From NCBI GenBank assembly GCA_036500345.1, contig DASYCE010000010.1:1-64000 (forward strand): DNA of 64,000 bases, written 5' to 3'. Each line of letters starts with the position of its first letter. Positions within the stretch are counted from its first letter, which is position 1. The position numbers and the translations under genes were made by a program. Under the pieces are notes generated by a model that saw nothing but the letters and a program-made list of their open reading frames with translations, searched no databases and was not told the DNA's origin. This document shows positions 54,610 through 62,782 of the stretch, piece by piece. Source of the DNA: Gemmatimonadales bacterium (GTDB taxonomy: Bacteria > Gemmatimonadota > Gemmatimonadetes > Gemmatimonadales > GWC2-71-9).

Positions 54610-55158
54610 CTAGTGCGGAATGACCTGGTAGGTGAGCTGGATGCTGGGAATCTGGTTGGGATCCTTCGACGAGCTCTTTCCCCAGTTGACGTACAACTGA
54701 ACGTTGTTGGTCTTGTTCGGCCCACCGGTCCCGATCGCAACGGTCACCCAGGTCGTGGTGCTCAGCGAGACGTACGCGGTTCCCGGTGGCGAAAGCGCCT
54801 GCACGTCGTTGACGATGGTGCTCTTGTTCTTGTCGGTGAACGGAACGGTGAGCTTCGCCTGCAGGGCGTACGGTCCGTTGTTGGTGGTCACGACGGTGGT
54901 CGAAGCGAAGATGTTGCCGCCCTTGTCGCGATCACCGGCAACGATGCCGGTATGCGACACGACGTGACCGATGCTCAGGACGGTGACCTTGGCGAGGTTC
55001 GTCTTGACGCTCGTCTGGGCATGCGCGCGCCCGGTGAAGAGCGCGACAAGCGCCACGGCGATGGCGAGGACGACGATCCACGCGGCGGCGCGGTTGGCCA
55101 GCACGATGAGCCGGTGGATCAGGTCATCTGCTGTGGCGACTTCACGACGATCTGACAT
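54610..55158 (-). CDS. Single-helix anchored protein of unknown function
   Basis: A 182-residue protein with a basic cytoplasmic start and one hydrophobic segment (LANRAAAWIVVLAIAVALVALF split at WIVVLAIAVALVALF) ending in HAQ, so it may be a cleaved signal or an anchor. The mature part is beta-rich with Asn/Thr, around ASTTVVTTNNGPYAL and YVSLSTTTWVTVAIGTGG, resembling secreted domains. Its 3' end abuts the SRPBCC stop (1 base gap, convergent). No family was recognised; it might belong with the adjacent fimbrial-like locus. Confidence 0.55.
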   Translation of the reverse strand: MSDRREVATADDLIHRLIVLANRAAAWIVVLAIAVALVALFTGRAHAQTSVKTNLAKVTVLSIGHVVSHTGIVAGDRDKGGNIFASTTVVTTNNGPYALQAKLTVPFTDKNKSTIVNDVQALSPPGTAYVSLSTTTWVTVAIGTGGPNKTNNVQLYVNWGKSSSKDPNQIPSIQLTYQVIPH

Positions 55159-55685: not shown

Positions 55686-56204
55686 ATGCGTTTCACCAAG
55701 GTCGTGCCGTTTCTCGGCGCGGCACTGGCGTTCGGCGCTACGTCGCTGAGCGCACAGGGAACCTGCACCACGACGCCGTCGTGCACGGTGACCAACACCG
55801 CGAGCGCCACGGTCAACACCGTTGCCCGCCTCACGCTCGACGCGGACAACACCGACCTCGGCACACCGGCCGAAGCCGACTTCATCGCCGGCCACAAGGA
55901 CGCTGCTGGTCCGACCGCGACGGTGCTGTCGAACACTGCGTGGCATGTGTCGGTCGTTGGTAACACGCCGAGCTTCGGCGCAGCTGGGGTTGGCGCCCGC
56001 GCGAGCAAGCCGGCAAGCGATCTCCTCTGGGGTACCACGGTCGGGACGTACGGCAACAACGCCGGAACCGCTGCTACGCTGTTCAATGGCAATGGCACCG
56101 CCGGTTCGTCGCAGCAGGCGTTCTATCGCACCAACTGGAGCTTCACGCTCGACACGCCGGGCACGTACACGCTCGTCGTGAACTACACGCTCAGCGAGCC
56201 GTGA
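55686..56204 (+). CDS. Fimbrial-subunit-like secreted protein 1
   Basis: A 172-residue exported protein, signal peptide FTKVVPFLGAALAFGATSLSA, cleaved before Gln. The mature part is a beta-rich Ala/Gly/Thr/Asn protein with CTTTPSCTVTN at its start, LTLDADNTDLGTPAEADFIA, and a C-terminal strand GTYTLVVNYTLSEP. The same C-terminal design (GTYT-x2-V-x2-TLSEP) recurs in the last gene of the operon, so both are probably paralogous pilin-like subunits with a donor-strand-type last beta-strand. A Shine-Dalgarno GGAGG precedes the ATG. Its stop overlaps the chaperone start (GTGA). Confidence 0.7.
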   Translation: MRFTKVVPFLGAALAFGATSLSAQGTCTTTPSCTVTNTASATVNTVARLTLDADNTDLGTPAEADFIAGHKDAAGPTATVLSNTAWHVSVVGNTPSFGAAGVGARASKPASDLLWGTTVGTYGNNAGTAATLFNGNGTAGSSQQAFYRTNWSFTLDTPGTYTLVVNYTLSEP

Positions 56205-57061
56205 AGCTGTTGTCATCACTGACCGATTCCGGGTGCGCGCCGTTGCGCGCACTGCGGCGTCGGTGTTTGCACGGCGTCGTGGGCGCACTTGCGCTCGCGG
56301 CGTTTGGCGCGGCCGCAACTCCGGCGGCGGCGCAGATCGCGATCGACCGGACCGAGATCCAGTTCCGGGCCGAGCCGGGTGAGCCGACCGTGGCACTGAT
56401 CGGACTGCACAACGAGGGGAAGGAACGGGTCCAGGCGGTGGTGCGGCTGGAGGACTGGGACCGCGCCAGCGATGGGACGAACAACTGGTATCCGTACGCG
56501 ACCAAGCCGGGATCGTGTGGCAAGGCACTCGACGTCTTCCCGCTCACCGTGTCGCTGGAGCCGGATGCGCGGCAGAGCATTCGCGTCAGGATGGATTCGA
56601 CCGTGCGGGCCGATCACGAATGCTGGGCCGGCGCGATCGTCGAGACGGTGCAGCCGCATGTGGTCAACGGGCGAAACGTGGCGTACGTCCTTCGCACTGC
56701 AACGAAGATCTACGTTGAGCCGCCGACGATCGCGGCCCATGGTGAAGTTGCCGCACTCAAGGTGATCAAGAGCGATTCGGCGACGGGAACTTCAGTGCCG
56801 GCCGATTCCGCGGTGGAACTCGAATTCAACAACACCGGTGCCAGGCACCTGGTGACCAGCGGCGAGATCCAGTTCCGCCGCCCCGACAATTCGATCGCCG
56901 AGACCGTGAAGCTCCCGATGCTGTACACGCTTCCCGGGGCGAAGAGCACGGCGCGCGTTGCGATGCCGAAGCTTGCCGCGGGGCGGTACGTCGTGCTTGC
57001 CGTGCTCGATTACGGCGGCGACGAACTGGCGGCGGGGCAGATCGAGTACGAGGTCAGGTGA
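56201..57061 (+). CDS. PapD-like periplasmic chaperone
   Basis: A 286-residue exported protein with a long signal peptide (about 1-44, ending AATPAAAQ). The mature protein has two Ig-like domains: QIAIDRTEIQFRAEPGEP and LIGLHNEGKERVQAVVRLEDWD in domain 1, with a linker and domain 2 beginning near GEVAALKVIKSD. This is the pattern of pilus chaperones, which hold subunits by donor-strand complementation. Cys pairs (PGSCGK, HECWAG) may form a disulfide in domain 1. GTG start in a GTGA overlap with the first subunit gene. Confidence 0.72.
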   Translation: MKLLSSLTDSGCAPLRALRRRCLHGVVGALALAAFGAAATPAAAQIAIDRTEIQFRAEPGEPTVALIGLHNEGKERVQAVVRLEDWDRASDGTNNWYPYATKPGSCGKALDVFPLTVSLEPDARQSIRVRMDSTVRADHECWAGAIVETVQPHVVNGRNVAYVLRTATKIYVEPPTIAAHGEVAALKVIKSDSATGTSVPADSAVELEFNNTGARHLVTSGEIQFRRPDNSIAETVKLPMLYTLPGAKSTARVAMPKLAAGRYVVLAVLDYGGDELAAGQIEYEVR

Positions 57062-57582
57062 TGGAGAATCGCGGATTGTGTAACGGCCACTCGATTGTCG
57101 TGGCGTTGCTAGTTAGCGCGCTGGCTGTGCCGTGTTCGGCGCAGTCTTTTTCGTCGGGGACGCATCTATCTCAGACGATCACCACGCCAACGGCAACGGA
57201 ATATGACGCCGGCGCCACTACTGCCACGCCTGCAGCAACGAATTTCTCCGTCACGATCAGCGTTCCGACCGGCGGTGGAAGCAACCCGCACTACGACTTG
57301 ACCTTGGCGCGCGGGACCAATCTTCAGGGGCAGCTGCTTGATATTCAATGGCAGATTGTGAGCGTCAGTAATGCGACCAACTGTGGAAGCCCTGCGGTTG
57401 GAGCGCCATTCGCGGAAATAAGCAGCTTGCCGATTTTGACAATGGGGAAGAACAGCTCGCCCTGTACTGTGACCATTGCATTTCGCGTTGCGGGTCTGTC
57501 GTACGCGGTTCAGGATGTGGGAGCCGGAGGCACTTTCGCCAACTTTGCACAAAATGTCGTCTTCACAGTGACGACCCGGTAA
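57061..57582 (+). CDS. Fimbrial-subunit-like secreted protein 2
   Basis: A 173-residue exported protein with signal peptide SIVVALLVSALAVPCSAQ. The mature part is Thr/Ser/Ala-rich and beta-rich, with Cys in NATNCGSP and SSPCTVTIAF likely forming a disulfide, and a C-terminal strand NVVFTVTTR. It is less similar to the other two subunits and could be an adaptor or tip. ATG 57061 has GAGG seven bases upstream; a GTG one codon earlier gives a GTGA overlap with the chaperone. Confidence 0.6.
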   Translation: MENRGLCNGHSIVVALLVSALAVPCSAQSFSSGTHLSQTITTPTATEYDAGATTATPAATNFSVTISVPTGGGSNPHYDLTLARGTNLQGQLLDIQWQIVSVSNATNCGSPAVGAPFAEISSLPILTMGKNSSPCTVTIAFRVAGLSYAVQDVGAGGTFANFAQNVVFTVTTR

Positions 57583-57589
57583 CGACGTG

Positions 57590-60391
57590 ATGCGTCGCAC
57601 TGTCCTCGGGATTCTGCTAGCGTGCACCTTGTGCACCGGGCTTGCGAGCGCGCAAGAATCCTCGCGCCCGGCCGGGCCACACGTCGTCGCAGCCACATTC
57701 CCGCGCCCGGACGGCGAAGTCCTCACCGCACCCGCCGTCGTCGCGCGCGCGACACCGCGCTCGTTCCAGATCATCGAAGTGACGATTCCACCAGCAATCG
57801 CATCGACGCAATCGATTCCCTACACCGTCGAACCGTCGGGATCGACGCCGGTCGTCAGCCGTCGCAGCGGAACGATCGAGCCGGCGAAGCCTGGCGCACC
57901 GGTTGGACCGCGTTCGCTGCTGGTGACGTTCTCGATTCCGAAGCACGCGCCGGCCGGGATGGTCGAGGTCGCACGGGTGAGGTTCTTCCCGCCCGGTGGT
58001 ACGCCGATCGAAGTGCCGGTCAACGTCCTCGTCGATGCCAGCGAAGCGATCCAGCTGACGGTCGGTGAAGCATTGCACGGCGTTCACGCCGGTGAGCGCT
58101 TTCTGTTGACCTACCGCGTGACGAATCTTGGCAACACTCCGGAAACGGTCGAAGTCAAGGCGGTCCTTCCGGCCGGGTGGACGCTCTACGCCACCGGTGC
58201 CGCGACGCGGCTCGGGATCAACGGAATGATCGAGCAGCAGATGACGATCGGCGTGCCACTCAACGCCGGGACCGGAGCTTCGAACCTGCGACTCGTCGCC
58301 TACGCCAACGGCGCGCCAGTTTCGACGGCCGAGGCGTCGGTCGATGTGGTCGACAGCAAGGACAACCTGGCCAATGGACCGGTGGTGTCGACGGCGATGT
58401 CGTTCGGCTGGGATCCGAATGGCACGATGGCGTCGGGGATTTCGGTGGGAGTCGCCGGGCATCTCACCGATTCGATCTCGATCCAGGCGCGCTTCTCCAG
58501 CACGCCGCGAGTCGCCGGATCGAGCGGCTACGCGCTGTCGCAGGCCGGCTTCTATCAGACGCCGCCAATGCTGCAGCTCACCGCTCCGCGCCTCCGTCTC
58601 GGCCTCGGCCTCACGGGAGAGCAGTTCTCCCAGCTTACCGGCTACAGTGTCAACGGCAACGGTATCTCGGCCGACGTGACTCGCGGGAAGTGGCAGGCGT
58701 CGATGCTGGTCGCGAATCCCGGATATGGCCAGCTCCCCGACAGCGGGATTCTTGCCGGCGGGCGCGTCGAGATGAACGCCGGTGCAGTGACCTACTCCGG
58801 TTCCGCGACGCACCTCGTCGACAACCAGGGTTCGCTGCACCGGTCGCTCGATGCGCTGTCGGTCGGCGCCACGCTGCCGCAATTCCTCAACGGGACCGCC
58901 GCAGCCGAACTTGCCGAACGATGGACAGCCGAGGGAGTGGCACCGGGCTGGACGACGTCGTATGCGCGGAACACCGCCGGCGACAACCTGTCGCTGCGAC
59001 TGCTGCACGCGCCGGGTGGAACGAGTGCCTTTGCGCAAGCCGCCGATCAGATTCTGGCGTCGGGCGGGCGCTCGATCACGCATCACCTGTCGGTGAGCGG
59101 TTCGTACACGATGTCGCAGGACGACGCCGGCGCAGGGTTCGGCGAACTCACCAGCCACAGCTGGAGCGCGGGCCCGCAATTGCAGGTCTCGCGCGCGCTC
59201 GGTTTCTCAGTGTCGGCCCGGCAGACGGCGTTTGCGGCGACAGGGACCAACGGATCGTTCAGCAACGGGGAGACCGGAACCGATATCGGCGCTTCGTTCC
59301 GCACCGGGGCGATGTATGTCACGTCGTTCGGATCGCTGGTGCAGGCGTCGAATGCGACGTCGATGCCCGACGGCGGACGGCTGGTGCAGGATGGACTTCG
59401 CCAGACGCTCAACGCCACGGCAGGGGTCGGCGGCAATCACGGTACGTTGGAGCTCAACACGCAGCTGTCGCGCAACAATGCATCGCTGGGGCAGATTCCC
59501 GAGCAGCTCGACGTGACACTGCGTGCCGATCGCGTCCCCCTCATCGCGGCGCAGCACATGCGCGTCTTCCTTTCCACGTCGGTGCGCCGGTCGTACACGC
59601 CGGGGTTCATCACGCCGAGAACGTATGAGACCGCGGCAATCGATGCGGAGCTGCCGATGGGGCTCTCGATCGGCGTGAGCGCCCAGCGGAATCCGTTCCT
59701 TCTCGCCGGCACCACGTCGGGCGGCTGGCTCTACGGTTTGCGCGTGGGCCGCGGGACGGCGCTGCCGCGGGTGAGCAGCAGCGAAACGCGCGGCATCGTC
59801 TACAAGGATCTCAATGACAACGGCGCCCTCGATCCGGGTGAACCCGGTGTATCGGGAGTGGTCGTACGGCGCGGCAATGAATCGGCGATCACCGAGGCCG
59901 ATGGTTCATACCGCTTCCTCGGAATGACGCGCGACTCGGTGACGCTCGATCCGTCGTCGCTCAAGGTCGGGATGATCGCCGGCTCTGTGAGGCAGCACGC
60001 CAACCGGCGCGAAATCGCCGTGGTCGCGGTGTCGCCGGTGGAGATCGAGCTCGACCGTTCGGGAAGTGATCTTGTGCAGGCAGATACCAGCGCCCTCGCC
60101 GACATCGCCGTCCTGGCCCGGGATGACAGCGGCCGAGTCTGGGTGTCGCGGCGGAGCAGTGCGGCGGTGGCGGTGTTCGACGCCTTGCCTCCTGGGCACT
60201 ACACCGTGCAGATCGACCTCGGCGATTCGCAGGAGAAGCTCGAGACGCGCGCGGCGCTTCCGGTATTCACGGTGAACGGGACAACCGCGGCGAAGCGGGT
60301 GAAGGTGGCGCTTTTCGCGCGGCCGGTGAAAGTGAAGAATCTCGACCAGCCGAACGCACCGCCGGCGCCAGATGGCGGAGTGCATCAGTGA
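57590..60391 (+). CDS. Usher-like outer-membrane protein with SdrD-B-like domain (novel type)
   Basis: A 933-residue exported protein, signal peptide about 1-22 (ACTLCTGLASAQ). Residues about 25-155 form an Ig-like beta domain, and about 160-265 a NEW3-like domain (HAGERFLLTYRVTNLGNTPE, VEVKAVLPAGWTLYA). About 270-730 is Gly/Ser/Thr-rich sequence of alternating strands as in an outer-membrane barrel (MSFGWDPNGTMASG, LSRNNASLGQIPEQLDVTLR). An SdrD-B/CnaB-like domain begins at RGIVYKDLNDNGALDPGEPG (about 734), with a last Ig-like domain to 933. The order resembles a chaperone-usher usher, but no FimD signature is seen. I infer that it exports the flanking subunits. ATG 57590; a GTG is one codon earlier. 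Confidence 0.6.
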   Translation: MRRTVLGILLACTLCTGLASAQESSRPAGPHVVAATFPRPDGEVLTAPAVVARATPRSFQIIEVTIPPAIASTQSIPYTVEPSGSTPVVSRRSGTIEPAKPGAPVGPRSLLVTFSIPKHAPAGMVEVARVRFFPPGGTPIEVPVNVLVDASEAIQLTVGEALHGVHAGERFLLTYRVTNLGNTPETVEVKAVLPAGWTLYATGAATRLGINGMIEQQMTIGVPLNAGTGASNLRLVAYANGAPVSTAEASVDVVDSKDNLANGPVVSTAMSFGWDPNGTMASGISVGVAGHLTDSISIQARFSSTPRVAGSSGYALSQAGFYQTPPMLQLTAPRLRLGLGLTGEQFSQLTGYSVNGNGISADVTRGKWQASMLVANPGYGQLPDSGILAGGRVEMNAGAVTYSGSATHLVDNQGSLHRSLDALSVGATLPQFLNGTAAAELAERWTAEGVAPGWTTSYARNTAGDNLSLRLLHAPGGTSAFAQAADQILASGGRSITHHLSVSGSYTMSQDDAGAGFGELTSHSWSAGPQLQVSRALGFSVSARQTAFAATGTNGSFSNGETGTDIGASFRTGAMYVTSFGSLVQASNATSMPDGGRLVQDGLRQTLNATAGVGGNHGTLELNTQLSRNNASLGQIPEQLDVTLRADRVPLIAAQHMRVFLSTSVRRSYTPGFITPRTYETAAIDAELPMGLSIGVSAQRNPFLLAGTTSGGWLYGLRVGRGTALPRVSSSETRGIVYKDLNDNGALDPGEPGVSGVVVRRGNESAITEADGSYRFLGMTRDSVTLDPSSLKVGMIAGSVRQHANRREIAVVAVSPVEIELDRSGSDLVQADTSALADIAVLARDDSGRVWVSRRSSAAVAVFDALPPGHYTVQIDLGDSQEKLETRAALPVFTVNGTTAAKRVKVALFARPVKVKNLDQPNAPPAPDGGVHQ

Positions 60392-60801
60392 AGCGGGCCG
60401 CGATGCTGGTAATCGCCGCGATCGCAACGGCCGGGTGCCAGATGGATGCGACGGCATCGTGCTCGGCCGTGCCGAATATCGTGGGAACGTGGCGCTACGC
60501 CGCGACCGAATCGTCGCCGGTACATGCGAGCATCGCCGGGACGCTGTCGATCACGTCGGCAAGCTGTGATGGGATCGTCGGATCGATGGATGTGGTCGAA
60601 TCCGACCAGGGCGGCGGCCAGCAGCGGCTCGCAGGCCCTTTGACCGGTCAAGTGGTCGATGGAGCGTCGTTCCAGTTCTCGGCGTTCGTGGACGGAAACG
60701 CGCGACAGCACCTTGCATCGGTGGCGGGTGATTCGGTGTCGGGAAGCTGGGTCGAGTCGGCGGCGGCGGCGTCTGGGACGTTCGGAGGGCGAAAGGAATG
60801 A
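60388..60801 (+). CDS. Small lipoprotein of the fimbrial-like operon
   Basis: A 137-residue lipoprotein, lipobox AATAGC (Cys17), with GTG start in a GTGA overlap with the usher-like gene. The mature part (about 120 residues) is beta-rich: GTWRYAATESSPVHASIAGT, GIVGSMDVVESDQGGG, FSAFVDGNARQHLAS. It is probably anchored in the outer membrane beside the usher-like protein as a docking or pilotin-like partner. No family recognised. Confidence 0.6.
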   Translation: MKRAAMLVIAAIATAGCQMDATASCSAVPNIVGTWRYAATESSPVHASIAGTLSITSASCDGIVGSMDVVESDQGGGQQRLAGPLTGQVVDGASFQFSAFVDGNARQHLASVAGDSVSGSWVESAAAASGTFGGRKE

Positions 60802-61367
60802 AGCGCTCGCGCACTCTACCGGCGGTCCTGATCGCTGCCTTCCTGCTCATCTCGGCAACGCGCTCACCGCTCGTTTCACAGTGTACAGGCGCGACATGCA
60901 CTGTGACAATCAACATGACTGTGAAACCGGTCCTGACGATTGATCTCACCGGCAACAATGCGAACACGGCGCTCGGAACCCCTGGCCAAGCCGACTTCGC
61001 TGCTGGTGGCCTGACCGCGACCGGTCCCACGGTAACGATCAAGGCGAACGGTGGGTACGCTGTATCCGTTGCGGCGACTAAGGCAACATTTGACTACGCC
61101 GGCGCCTTCAACAACCCTTTGAAACCGGCGTCGGATCTGACATGGGCTCCCGGGGTCGGCGCAGCACCTGGTTCCTGTTCGGGAGTCACCAGCTTCGGTC
61201 ATAACGTTGGCGCAAGCACAAATCTGATGTCTGGCAGCGTTGGTGCCCCGGCGACAAACGTATCGCCTCCGTCGCAGACGCTTTGCTATCGAACCCTTTG
61301 GACCTTCGCCGCGTCACCACCCGGAACGTATACCATTCACGTGGTCTTTACGCTGTCGGAGCCATAG
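60798..61367 (+). CDS. Fimbrial-subunit-like secreted protein 3 (paralogue of subunit 1)
   Basis: A 189-residue exported protein, signal peptide RTLPAVLIAAFLLISATRS region, mature start near Ser-Gln-Cys. It shares with subunit 1 the sequences LGTPGQADFAAGG, KPASDLTWAPGVGAA and YRTLWTFAA, and ends with GTYTIHVVFTLSEP. Extra Cys residues (TCTVTI, GSCSGV, TLCYRT) suggest disulfides. The ATGA overlap with the lipoprotein gene makes it the last gene; a hairpin 11 bases after its stop probably ends the transcript. Confidence 0.68.
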   Translation: MKRSRTLPAVLIAAFLLISATRSPLVSQCTGATCTVTINMTVKPVLTIDLTGNNANTALGTPGQADFAAGGLTATGPTVTIKANGGYAVSVAATKATFDYAGAFNNPLKPASDLTWAPGVGAAPGSCSGVTSFGHNVGASTNLMSGSVGAPATNVSPPSQTLCYRTLWTFAASPPGTYTIHVVFTLSEP

Positions 61368-61488: not shown

Positions 61489-62201
61489 GCTTGCACGCCG
61501 ATGCAGTCGGCTTGCATCGGGATGCAATGAGCCCGAACGCCGATGAAGTCCGCGCGCATCGGGATGCAATGAGCCCGAACGCCGATGAAACCCGCTTGCA
61601 TCGGGATGCAGTAAGCCCGAACGGCCGTGAAGTCCGCTTGCATCGGGATGCAGTAAGCCCGAAAGGCGATGAAGTCCGCTTTCAGCGAGATGCAACGAGC
61701 CCGAACAGCCATGCAGTCCGCTTGCATCAAGATGCAGTGGACCCGAACGCCGATTCGATCGTCGCGAATGGCCGTGAAGAGAGCTCTGCGGCAGTCGAAG
61801 TCGTCGTTGATGGATATGAGAAGGTCGTTGAGGCAGATGAACTGGGCGCGCACGACCGTGCGATGAGCTTTATCGGCCATGCAATGATCGCGCATCGCCA
61901 TGCAGTGAGCTTGCACGCCGTCGAAGTGAGCTTGAACGGACCCGATACGGGCGCGAAGGCGTATGAAGTCGCCTTGCAGCGCCGTAGATGACAGCGAACG
62001 GCGATGCATTGAGCTTGCGGCGTCATGCAGTGAGCCCGGAGCGCCATGAGATCGTCCCGACGAGGGTCGATACGGACCCGCAGCGACATGAAATGGTGTC
62101 GATTCGCCCATAGATGACCGTGAATGGCCACGAGAAGGTCGCGCAGAGGTTCGAGGAGCTCGCGAATCGAGACGAGAAGGTCGTGAAGCGGGATGAGACG
62201 G
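61489..62201. repeat. Degenerate 21-base (seven-codon) tandem repeat array, 34 units
   Basis: Thirty-four units laid end to end, all 21 bases except one of 20 (61993-62012). Two unit forms alternate in the better conserved left half: one containing TTGCATCGGGATGCA (a near-perfect palindrome, TTGCATC/GATGCAA around two bases) and one starting GCCCGAACGCCGATGAAG. Right-hand units are more diverged but keep length. Because 21 is a multiple of 3, both strands stay open for long stretches. Minus-strand translation gives amphipathic heptads (CIPMQAD/FIGVRAH; LLVSIRE LLEPLRD), plus-strand gives VSPNGDE/VRLHRDA. The 20-base unit shifts the frame, so no intact gene spans the array. Not CRISPR: there are no unique spacers. 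Confidence 0.8.
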
Positions 62202-62223: not shown

Positions 62224-62493
62224 CTAATCGTAGTGGTAACGTGCTTGCAGGAACTCGATGCGGTCGCCGAACACCTCGTAGATGAGCCGGTCGGCTTCGC
62301 TGACCCGCCGCGACCAGACGTTGCCGCCGAAATGCTTCAGGTGTTCAGGCTTGCCAATACCGGCGAAGGGGTCGCGAAGGGTCGCGTCGATGAGGTCGAG
62401 CACCCGAAGGGCTGTCTTCCGGTTGGTCTCCACCCAGTATCGAATATCGTCGAGACATTCGTTCTGAATGACGGCGCGCCTGGCTGAAGGCAT
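62224..62493 (-). CDS. yoeB: YoeB-family mRNA interferase toxin
   Basis: An 89-residue RelE/YoeB-fold ribosome-dependent RNase. Family marks are DIRYWVETNRKTALRVLDLI, GIGKPEHLKHFGGNVWSRR, EADRLIYEV and the C-terminal FLQARYHYD, with the catalytic Glu/Arg/His set and the terminal Tyr-His-Tyr present. It follows the YefM antitoxin with a 7-base gap, the standard order. Downstream lies the 21-base repeat array. Confidence 0.92.
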   Translation of the reverse strand: MPSARRAVIQNECLDDIRYWVETNRKTALRVLDLIDATLRDPFAGIGKPEHLKHFGGNVWSRRVSEADRLIYEVFGDRIEFLQARYHYD

Positions 62494-62500
62494 ACCGGGT

Positions 62501-62782
62501 TCAGCGGGGGAGATTCAGTTCACGACGCAACGATGCGAGGTCGGTGGGCTTGCTCCGTCCACTCCTGGCCCGGGTGAGCGCAGCAAGGAGCCGAGCTGCG
62601 TTGGCTGGCGAACGCAGCAGGTATGCCGTCTCATGCAGGGAGGCGAGCTCATCGGCCGGGATGAGCGCCATGTCCTCGTGACCGCGTCGCTCGATGACAG
62701 CAGCTTCTCGGGAATTCTCGACCTCGTCCCAGAGCGAAGCGAGGTTCTCACGGGCGTTACTGTAGGTTGTCTTGATGCTCAT
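62501..62782 (-). CDS. yefM: YefM-family antitoxin
   Basis: A 93-residue Phd/YefM antitoxin: SNARENLASLWDEVENSREAA is the DNA-binding N-terminal domain, VIERRGHEDMALIPADELAS follows, and the C-terminus (ETAYLLRSPANAARLLAAL) wraps the toxin. It represses its own operon, helped by YoeB. The ATG lies 17 bases from the TGTACA operator. Confidence 0.92.
   Translation of the reverse strand: MSIKTTYSNARENLASLWDEVENSREAAVIERRGHEDMALIPADELASLHETAYLLRSPANAARLLAALTRARSGRSKPTDLASLRRELNLPR

Follow-up and report, generated by a model that had tools for sequence, protein, structure and literature searches.

A six-gene operon from a Gemmatimonadales bacterium, lying within the 64,000-nucleotide stretch of DNA analysed here (the window), very probably encodes a divergent chaperone–usher pathway that would export donor-strand-complemented fibres, a pathway known here from genes and predictions. 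The gene order, the kinship of the product of gene B with PapD, the pilin fold of A and the usher-like architecture of D were all obtained by computation. An earlier note on this DNA had proposed a previously undescribed type of surface-fibre export; the chaperone–usher likeness stands, but the operon is better regarded as a variant of the chaperone–usher pathway, and as a variant rather than a standard member because the barrel of D, in a model with a pTM of only 0.49, is predicted to contain no plug. We found no description of such a system in open-access papers. With the classical Fim and Pap systems the operon has in common its gene content and logic: an usher whose barrel is flanked by periplasmic domains at the N-terminus and by the C-terminal domains CTD1 and CTD2, a PapD-like chaperone with a G1-strand Lys, and pilins with Gly at position -14. 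With the archaic (sigma) systems, among them Csu and the DUF4402-type operons of Gemmatimonadota, it shares CTD1–CTD2 homology and a wide phylogenetic reach.

All six open reading frames are present in the ORF list of the window, co-directional on the forward strand at 55686–61367, as the earlier note had read them (Table 1). Its description of the genes as linked by 4-base overlaps applies to four of the five junctions (A–B, B–C, D–E and E–F) but not to C and D, which are separated by a gap of 4–7 bases, depending on whether D begins at its ATG or at an alternative GTG at 57587 (57587–60391, 934 residues). A GGAGG ribosome-binding site lies just 5′ of gene A, and a search for a sigma-70-like promoter for the operon returned none above chance level. 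The genome measures 3.3 Mb, with the locus on contig 10, and the nearest named relatives at the locus are Gemmatimonadota MAGs.

Table 1. Genes of the operon and predicted features of their products, in window coordinates
Feature	Position	Strand	Details or basis
Gene A, pilin-like subunit	55686..56204	+	172 aa, with signal peptide
A, C-terminal F-strand from Gly at -14, GTYTLVVNYTLSEP	56160..56201	+	34-subunit alignment
Gene B, PapD-superfamily two-domain periplasmic chaperone (by sequence)	56201..57061	+	286 aa
Gene C, diverged pilin-like subunit	57058..57582	+	174 aa
Gene D, usher-like outer-membrane protein	57590..60391	+	933 aa from ATG 57590
D residues 45–158, first N-terminal Ig-like domain	57722..58063	+	AlphaFold2
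D residues 162–255, NEW3-like (NPCBM_assoc) Ig domain	58073..58354	+	AlphaFold2, Pfam
D residues 265–724, beta-barrel of 26 predicted strands without an inserted plug domain	58382..59761	+	AlphaFold2, Foldseek, VIA
D residues 733–823, CTD1, SdrD_B-like	59786..60058	+	Pfam, hhalign, AlphaFold2
D residues 832–910, CTD2	60083..60319	+	hhalign, AlphaFold2
Gene E, small beta-rich lipoprotein	60388..60801	+	137 aa, invariant lipobox Cys17
Gene F, pilin-like subunit	60798..61367	+	189 aa, 41% identity with A
F, C-terminal F-strand from Gly at -14, GTYTIHVVFTLSEP	61323..61364	+	34-subunit alignment

Modelling of D with AlphaFold2 from an 18-sequence alignment (pLDDT 78, pTM 0.49) predicts an usher-like protein in which a barrel of about 26 strands is preceded by two Ig domains and followed by CTD1 and CTD2, although with so low a pTM and so few rows neither the number of strands nor the placement of the domains is certain. 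The barrel falls where an usher plan had been proposed from the sequence (about residues 270–730), flanked by beta domains. Pfam recognizes NEW3 (NPCBM_assoc) at residues 167–238 (E = 1.6e-6), a domain found in 16 of 18 family members, and SdrD_B at 737–783 (E = 3.7e-7). Both domains had been anticipated, yet neither has quite the meaning first given to it: rather than preceding a normal usher NTD, the NEW3-like domain is modelled as taking its place together with one further Ig domain, and the SdrD_B-like tail occurs outside this locus as well, since the C-terminus of D (730–915) matches the archaic-like ushers of the same phylum typified by locus L042 (P = 98, E = 8.6e-14; profile comparison). 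This homology over the C-terminal 185 residues ties D to ushers.

The lack of a FimD signature was likewise correctly noted: none of the 18 D family members matches Usher, PapC_N or PapC_C, whereas K-12 FimD, our positive control, matches all three. No usher family showed sequence similarity to D over its barrel or its N-terminus, and direct profile comparison with FimD aligned only the CTD1 region, at a marginal E value. By itself, however, a Pfam miss says little for novelty, because the test is unspecific: the one archaic-like usher scanned, that of L042, also fails the PF00577, PapC_N and PapC_C models.

In structural searches with the D model, the five best Foldseek matches in the PDB were all FimD chains (E = 4e-12 to 6e-10, ~790 columns), and VIA aligned D with PapC (7lhh_C; Z = 15.2, 359 residues aligned, rmsd 4.6). 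The nearest barrel in the VIA comparison, whose output does not exclude families missing from it, was that of MtrB, a 26-stranded porin of the Mtr electron conduit (6r2q_B; Z = 18.3, 419 aligned, rmsd 4.5), and porins and TonB receptors scored near the ushers (Z = 13–15), so that barrel comparison alone is not enough to name an usher. Such scores would suit a reading of D as a large MtrB-like or transporter-like porin whose neighbours are surface proteins anchored or exported without fibre formation; we consider this very improbable, given the FimD chains heading the Foldseek list, the conservation of a PapD-like chaperone and pilin-fold neighbours across many genomes, and the retention in D of the usher domain order, plug excepted. 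To our knowledge, MtrB lacks CTDs and Ig domains at the N-terminus, is accompanied by neither a chaperone nor pilins, and differs in function. The identification of D as usher-like comes from its domain order, its chaperone and its pilins.

Ushers consist of five domains, one of which, the plug, shuts the pore (PMC3960871). The longest gap between the predicted barrel strands of D is 24 residues, no aligned relative carries a barrel-region insertion longer than this, and the barrel region spans 437–488 residues in Gemmatimonadota; a plug of ~80 residues would thus find no space. A barrel without an inserted plug domain and with ~26 predicted strands, against 24 in FimD, appears to be the real distinction of D from known ushers, a claim that leans on the model and that we hold with clearly less confidence than the assignment of the operon to a chaperone–usher pathway. 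The same measurements weigh against a reading of the operon as an ordinary archaic (sigma) system diverged beyond recognition, its plug or an equivalent having been missed by the model. That reading would account for the match of CTD1–CTD2 to the phylum's archaic-like ushers, for the match of B to the chaperones of the same operons and for the shared failure of Pfam; we nonetheless judge it unlikely, though deserving of weight, because the phylum possesses separate archaic-like operons with DUF4402-type subunits and another usher N-terminal domain, and because the subunits of the present operon match no SCPU or DUF4402 model.

The chaperone recognized in the earlier note is borne out by its relatives. 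B by itself gives no convincing Pfam match; PapD_N is found in 10 of 18 family members (best E = 4.9e-11), and hhalign pairs the profile of the family with FimC-like chaperones (P = 95–97, E = 1e-8 to 1e-10); the profile finds PapD and CupB2 among PDB structures (E ~0.005) and also matches the chaperones that accompany the phylum's archaic-like ushers, so that B is, judged by profile similarity, a PapD-superfamily periplasmic chaperone. Its Lys169, invariant in the family alignment, aligns with Lys112 of FimC and PapD, but Glu52 sits at the position of FimC Arg8, leaving the classical carboxylate anchor (Arg8 and Lys112) half kept. The anchor of CsuC differs from that of FimC and PapD (PMC4654587), the CsuC-type anchor comprising Arg89, Tyr196 and Arg174.

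A, C and F are predicted to be incomplete Ig-fold pilins with a free N-terminal extension. While A and F share 41% identity, C is strongly diverged from both and belongs to the same family at the profile level (hhalign, P = 99.3, E = 1.6e-20). The AlphaFold2 model of A (34-row alignment; pLDDT 84.5, pTM 0.70) consists of a confident beta sandwich at residues 47–170, preceded by unpaired residues that include an N-terminal extension at ~25–45; as modelled, this extension is the likely donor strand. Foldseek and VIA lists for A are dominated by chaperone–usher pilins, at a modest best Foldseek E value (4e-3) and middling VIA scores (Z = 8–9.6): the pilins 7zl4_B (Z = 8.2, 121 aligned, rmsd 4.1) and 5iqm_A (Z = 8.0, 112 aligned, rmsd 3.0) lie slightly below the TasA-like fibre protein TLP-1 (Z = 9.6, 132 aligned, rmsd 3.0). 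We know of no chaperone–usher pair that exports TasA-type fibres. The subunits also resemble the archaic pilin CsuA/B in predicted fold. No sequence match to FimA profiles or to PDB sequences was found for the subunits, and none of 34 subunits matches SCPU or DUF4402, the latter of which does recognize an archaic-type control subunit.

The C-termini of the subunits follow a strict pattern. In all 34, Gly lies exactly 14 and Tyr 12 residues from the end, with positions -4, -6, -8 and -10 mostly hydrophobic; Gly at -14 is present in all nine classical pilins examined, five of them from K-12 fim (FimA, FimF, FimG and FimH among them), but the subunits here differ from classical pilins in ending in Pro and in lacking the penultimate Tyr. 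The closing TLSEP, which had been put forward as a donor-strand or recognition end common to two subunits, is indeed shared by A and F (TLTAP in most relatives); since it ends the C-terminal F-strand with Gly at -14, it is the chaperone-facing end, and of the two proposals only recognition by the chaperone survives. Several different subunits at each locus, none an obvious two-domain tip adhesin, and the strong divergence of C might instead suit subunits that stay as monomers or short oligomers, perhaps in a coat or a layer of adhesins, and build no long pili. This we regard as improbable: A has its unpaired N-terminal extension, and both A and F carry the C-terminal pattern of polymerising pilins.

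We searched for D in 298 and then 395 Gemmatimonadota genomes, finding full-length homologues in 38 of the 395 (E < 1e-100 over most of the length) and genes split at contig ends in two more. They fall in four families (f1, f2, f4 and f7) and are patchily distributed: nine other genomes of the window's genus yielded none, bar one stray domain match. Gene order was counted in 35 loci and the window using clean rebuilt profiles, free of archaic-like ushers. The six-gene order subunit–chaperone–subunit–D–lipoprotein–subunit, proposed earlier as something to seek elsewhere, recurs in 13 loci, window included, some of which share one genus and are therefore not independent; the remaining loci lack E, carry it on the opposite strand or have additional subunits, and those of more distant families read subunit–chaperone–subunit–D. 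Membership of D in a soluble surface-layer family without chaperone neighbours had been named as one case against the original reading; instead, the chaperone precedes D at every locus except a few that are cut short. The recurrence of gene set and order across many genomes, at 20–50% protein identity, indicates that the locus is not a chance arrangement.

Most occurrences of the operon type lie in Gemmatimonadota, but it reaches beyond this phylum. A chaperone-profile scan of genome contigs recovered 17 Gemmatimonadota-type loci and two Verrucomicrobiota contigs, the latter arranged subunit–subunit–chaperone–D, with or without a further subunit. Full-length D occurs in one of 195 Verrucomicrobiota genomes surveyed, where other matches were mostly stray SdrD_B domains, and relatives of D are present in two Verrucomicrobiota genomes overall. 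On a plasmid of Deinococcus sp. NW-56, a full-length D homologue (E = 1.2e-24) follows a B homologue (E = 1.5e-35) at a distance of two genes, in an operon of the same type (NZ_CP026517.1, 305683–316159) whose genes are annotated as hypothetical. A match on a Novosphingobium plasmid was not confirmed as a relative with clean profiles. One genome (G038, locus L060, 6535–18999) carries the operon in two tandem copies; the window's own genome, searched with PF00577 and PF00345, yielded no further usher or chaperone.

From these components we infer donor-strand exchange and fibre formation, along with domain roles and a mode of gating. A, C and F would arrive in the periplasm as pilins with an incomplete Ig fold, and B would there cap the groove left by their missing G strand and read the C-terminal strand running from Gly at -14 to TLSEP or TLTAP. 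The N-terminal Ig and NEW3 domains of D, at the place of the usher NTD, probably receive the chaperone–subunit complexes, and CTD1 and CTD2 may hold the base of the growing fibre; the next subunit's free N-terminal extension would join it to the one before by donor-strand exchange, and the subunits would exit through the barrel. Because this barrel is predicted without a plug domain, something else must close it at rest. Candidates are its internal loops, such as the conserved HAPGGSxAF loop, the Ig domains at the N-terminus and, at loci that have it, E.

E, already recognized as a lipoprotein in the earlier note, bears a lipobox Cys that is invariant (19 of 19), together with a beta pattern of conserved Gly and Trp; it is kept in most f1 and f2 loci and was not found in those of the distant families. 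LptE serves the 26-stranded LptD, of which a D barrel gated by a dedicated lipoprotein would be reminiscent; by this analogy, and as a hypothesis only, E might close the plugless barrel or help to assemble it. The operon may further represent a separate chaperone–usher class, with a plugless ~26-strand usher, Ig and NEW3 domains replacing the NTD and gating by its own loops or by lipoprotein E, a suggestion we offer tentatively and lean slightly against.

The proposed pathway would add soil Gemmatimonadota, along with scattered members of Verrucomicrobiota and Deinococcota, to the bacteria with chaperone–usher-type fibre export; these are phyla whose pilus systems are undercounted because their components are not named by Pfam or NCBIfam. 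If D really works without the known plug and NTD, it would test which usher domains gating and chaperone–subunit recruitment cannot do without, a question so far studied mainly in E. coli systems. Separate archaic-like chaperone–usher operons with DUF4402-type subunits also occur in Gemmatimonadota, at L042 (7106–12310), L043, L046 and L091; such systems, too, are probably undercounted, the L042 usher having been missed by PF00577.

Around the operon, comparison of flanking genes within the window's genus revealed no insertion boundary. On its 5′ side lies a divergent gene for a small exported protein with no Pfam family (54610–55104, reverse strand), a candidate subunit that we rejected: it had matched a profile that had absorbed archaic-like ushers, and does not match the clean one. 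Directly 3′ of the operon is a 42-bp tandem repeat of ~6 copies (61495–61754), and a pair encoding a YoeB-like toxin and a Phd/YefM antitoxin lies nearby on the reverse strand (62224–62782).
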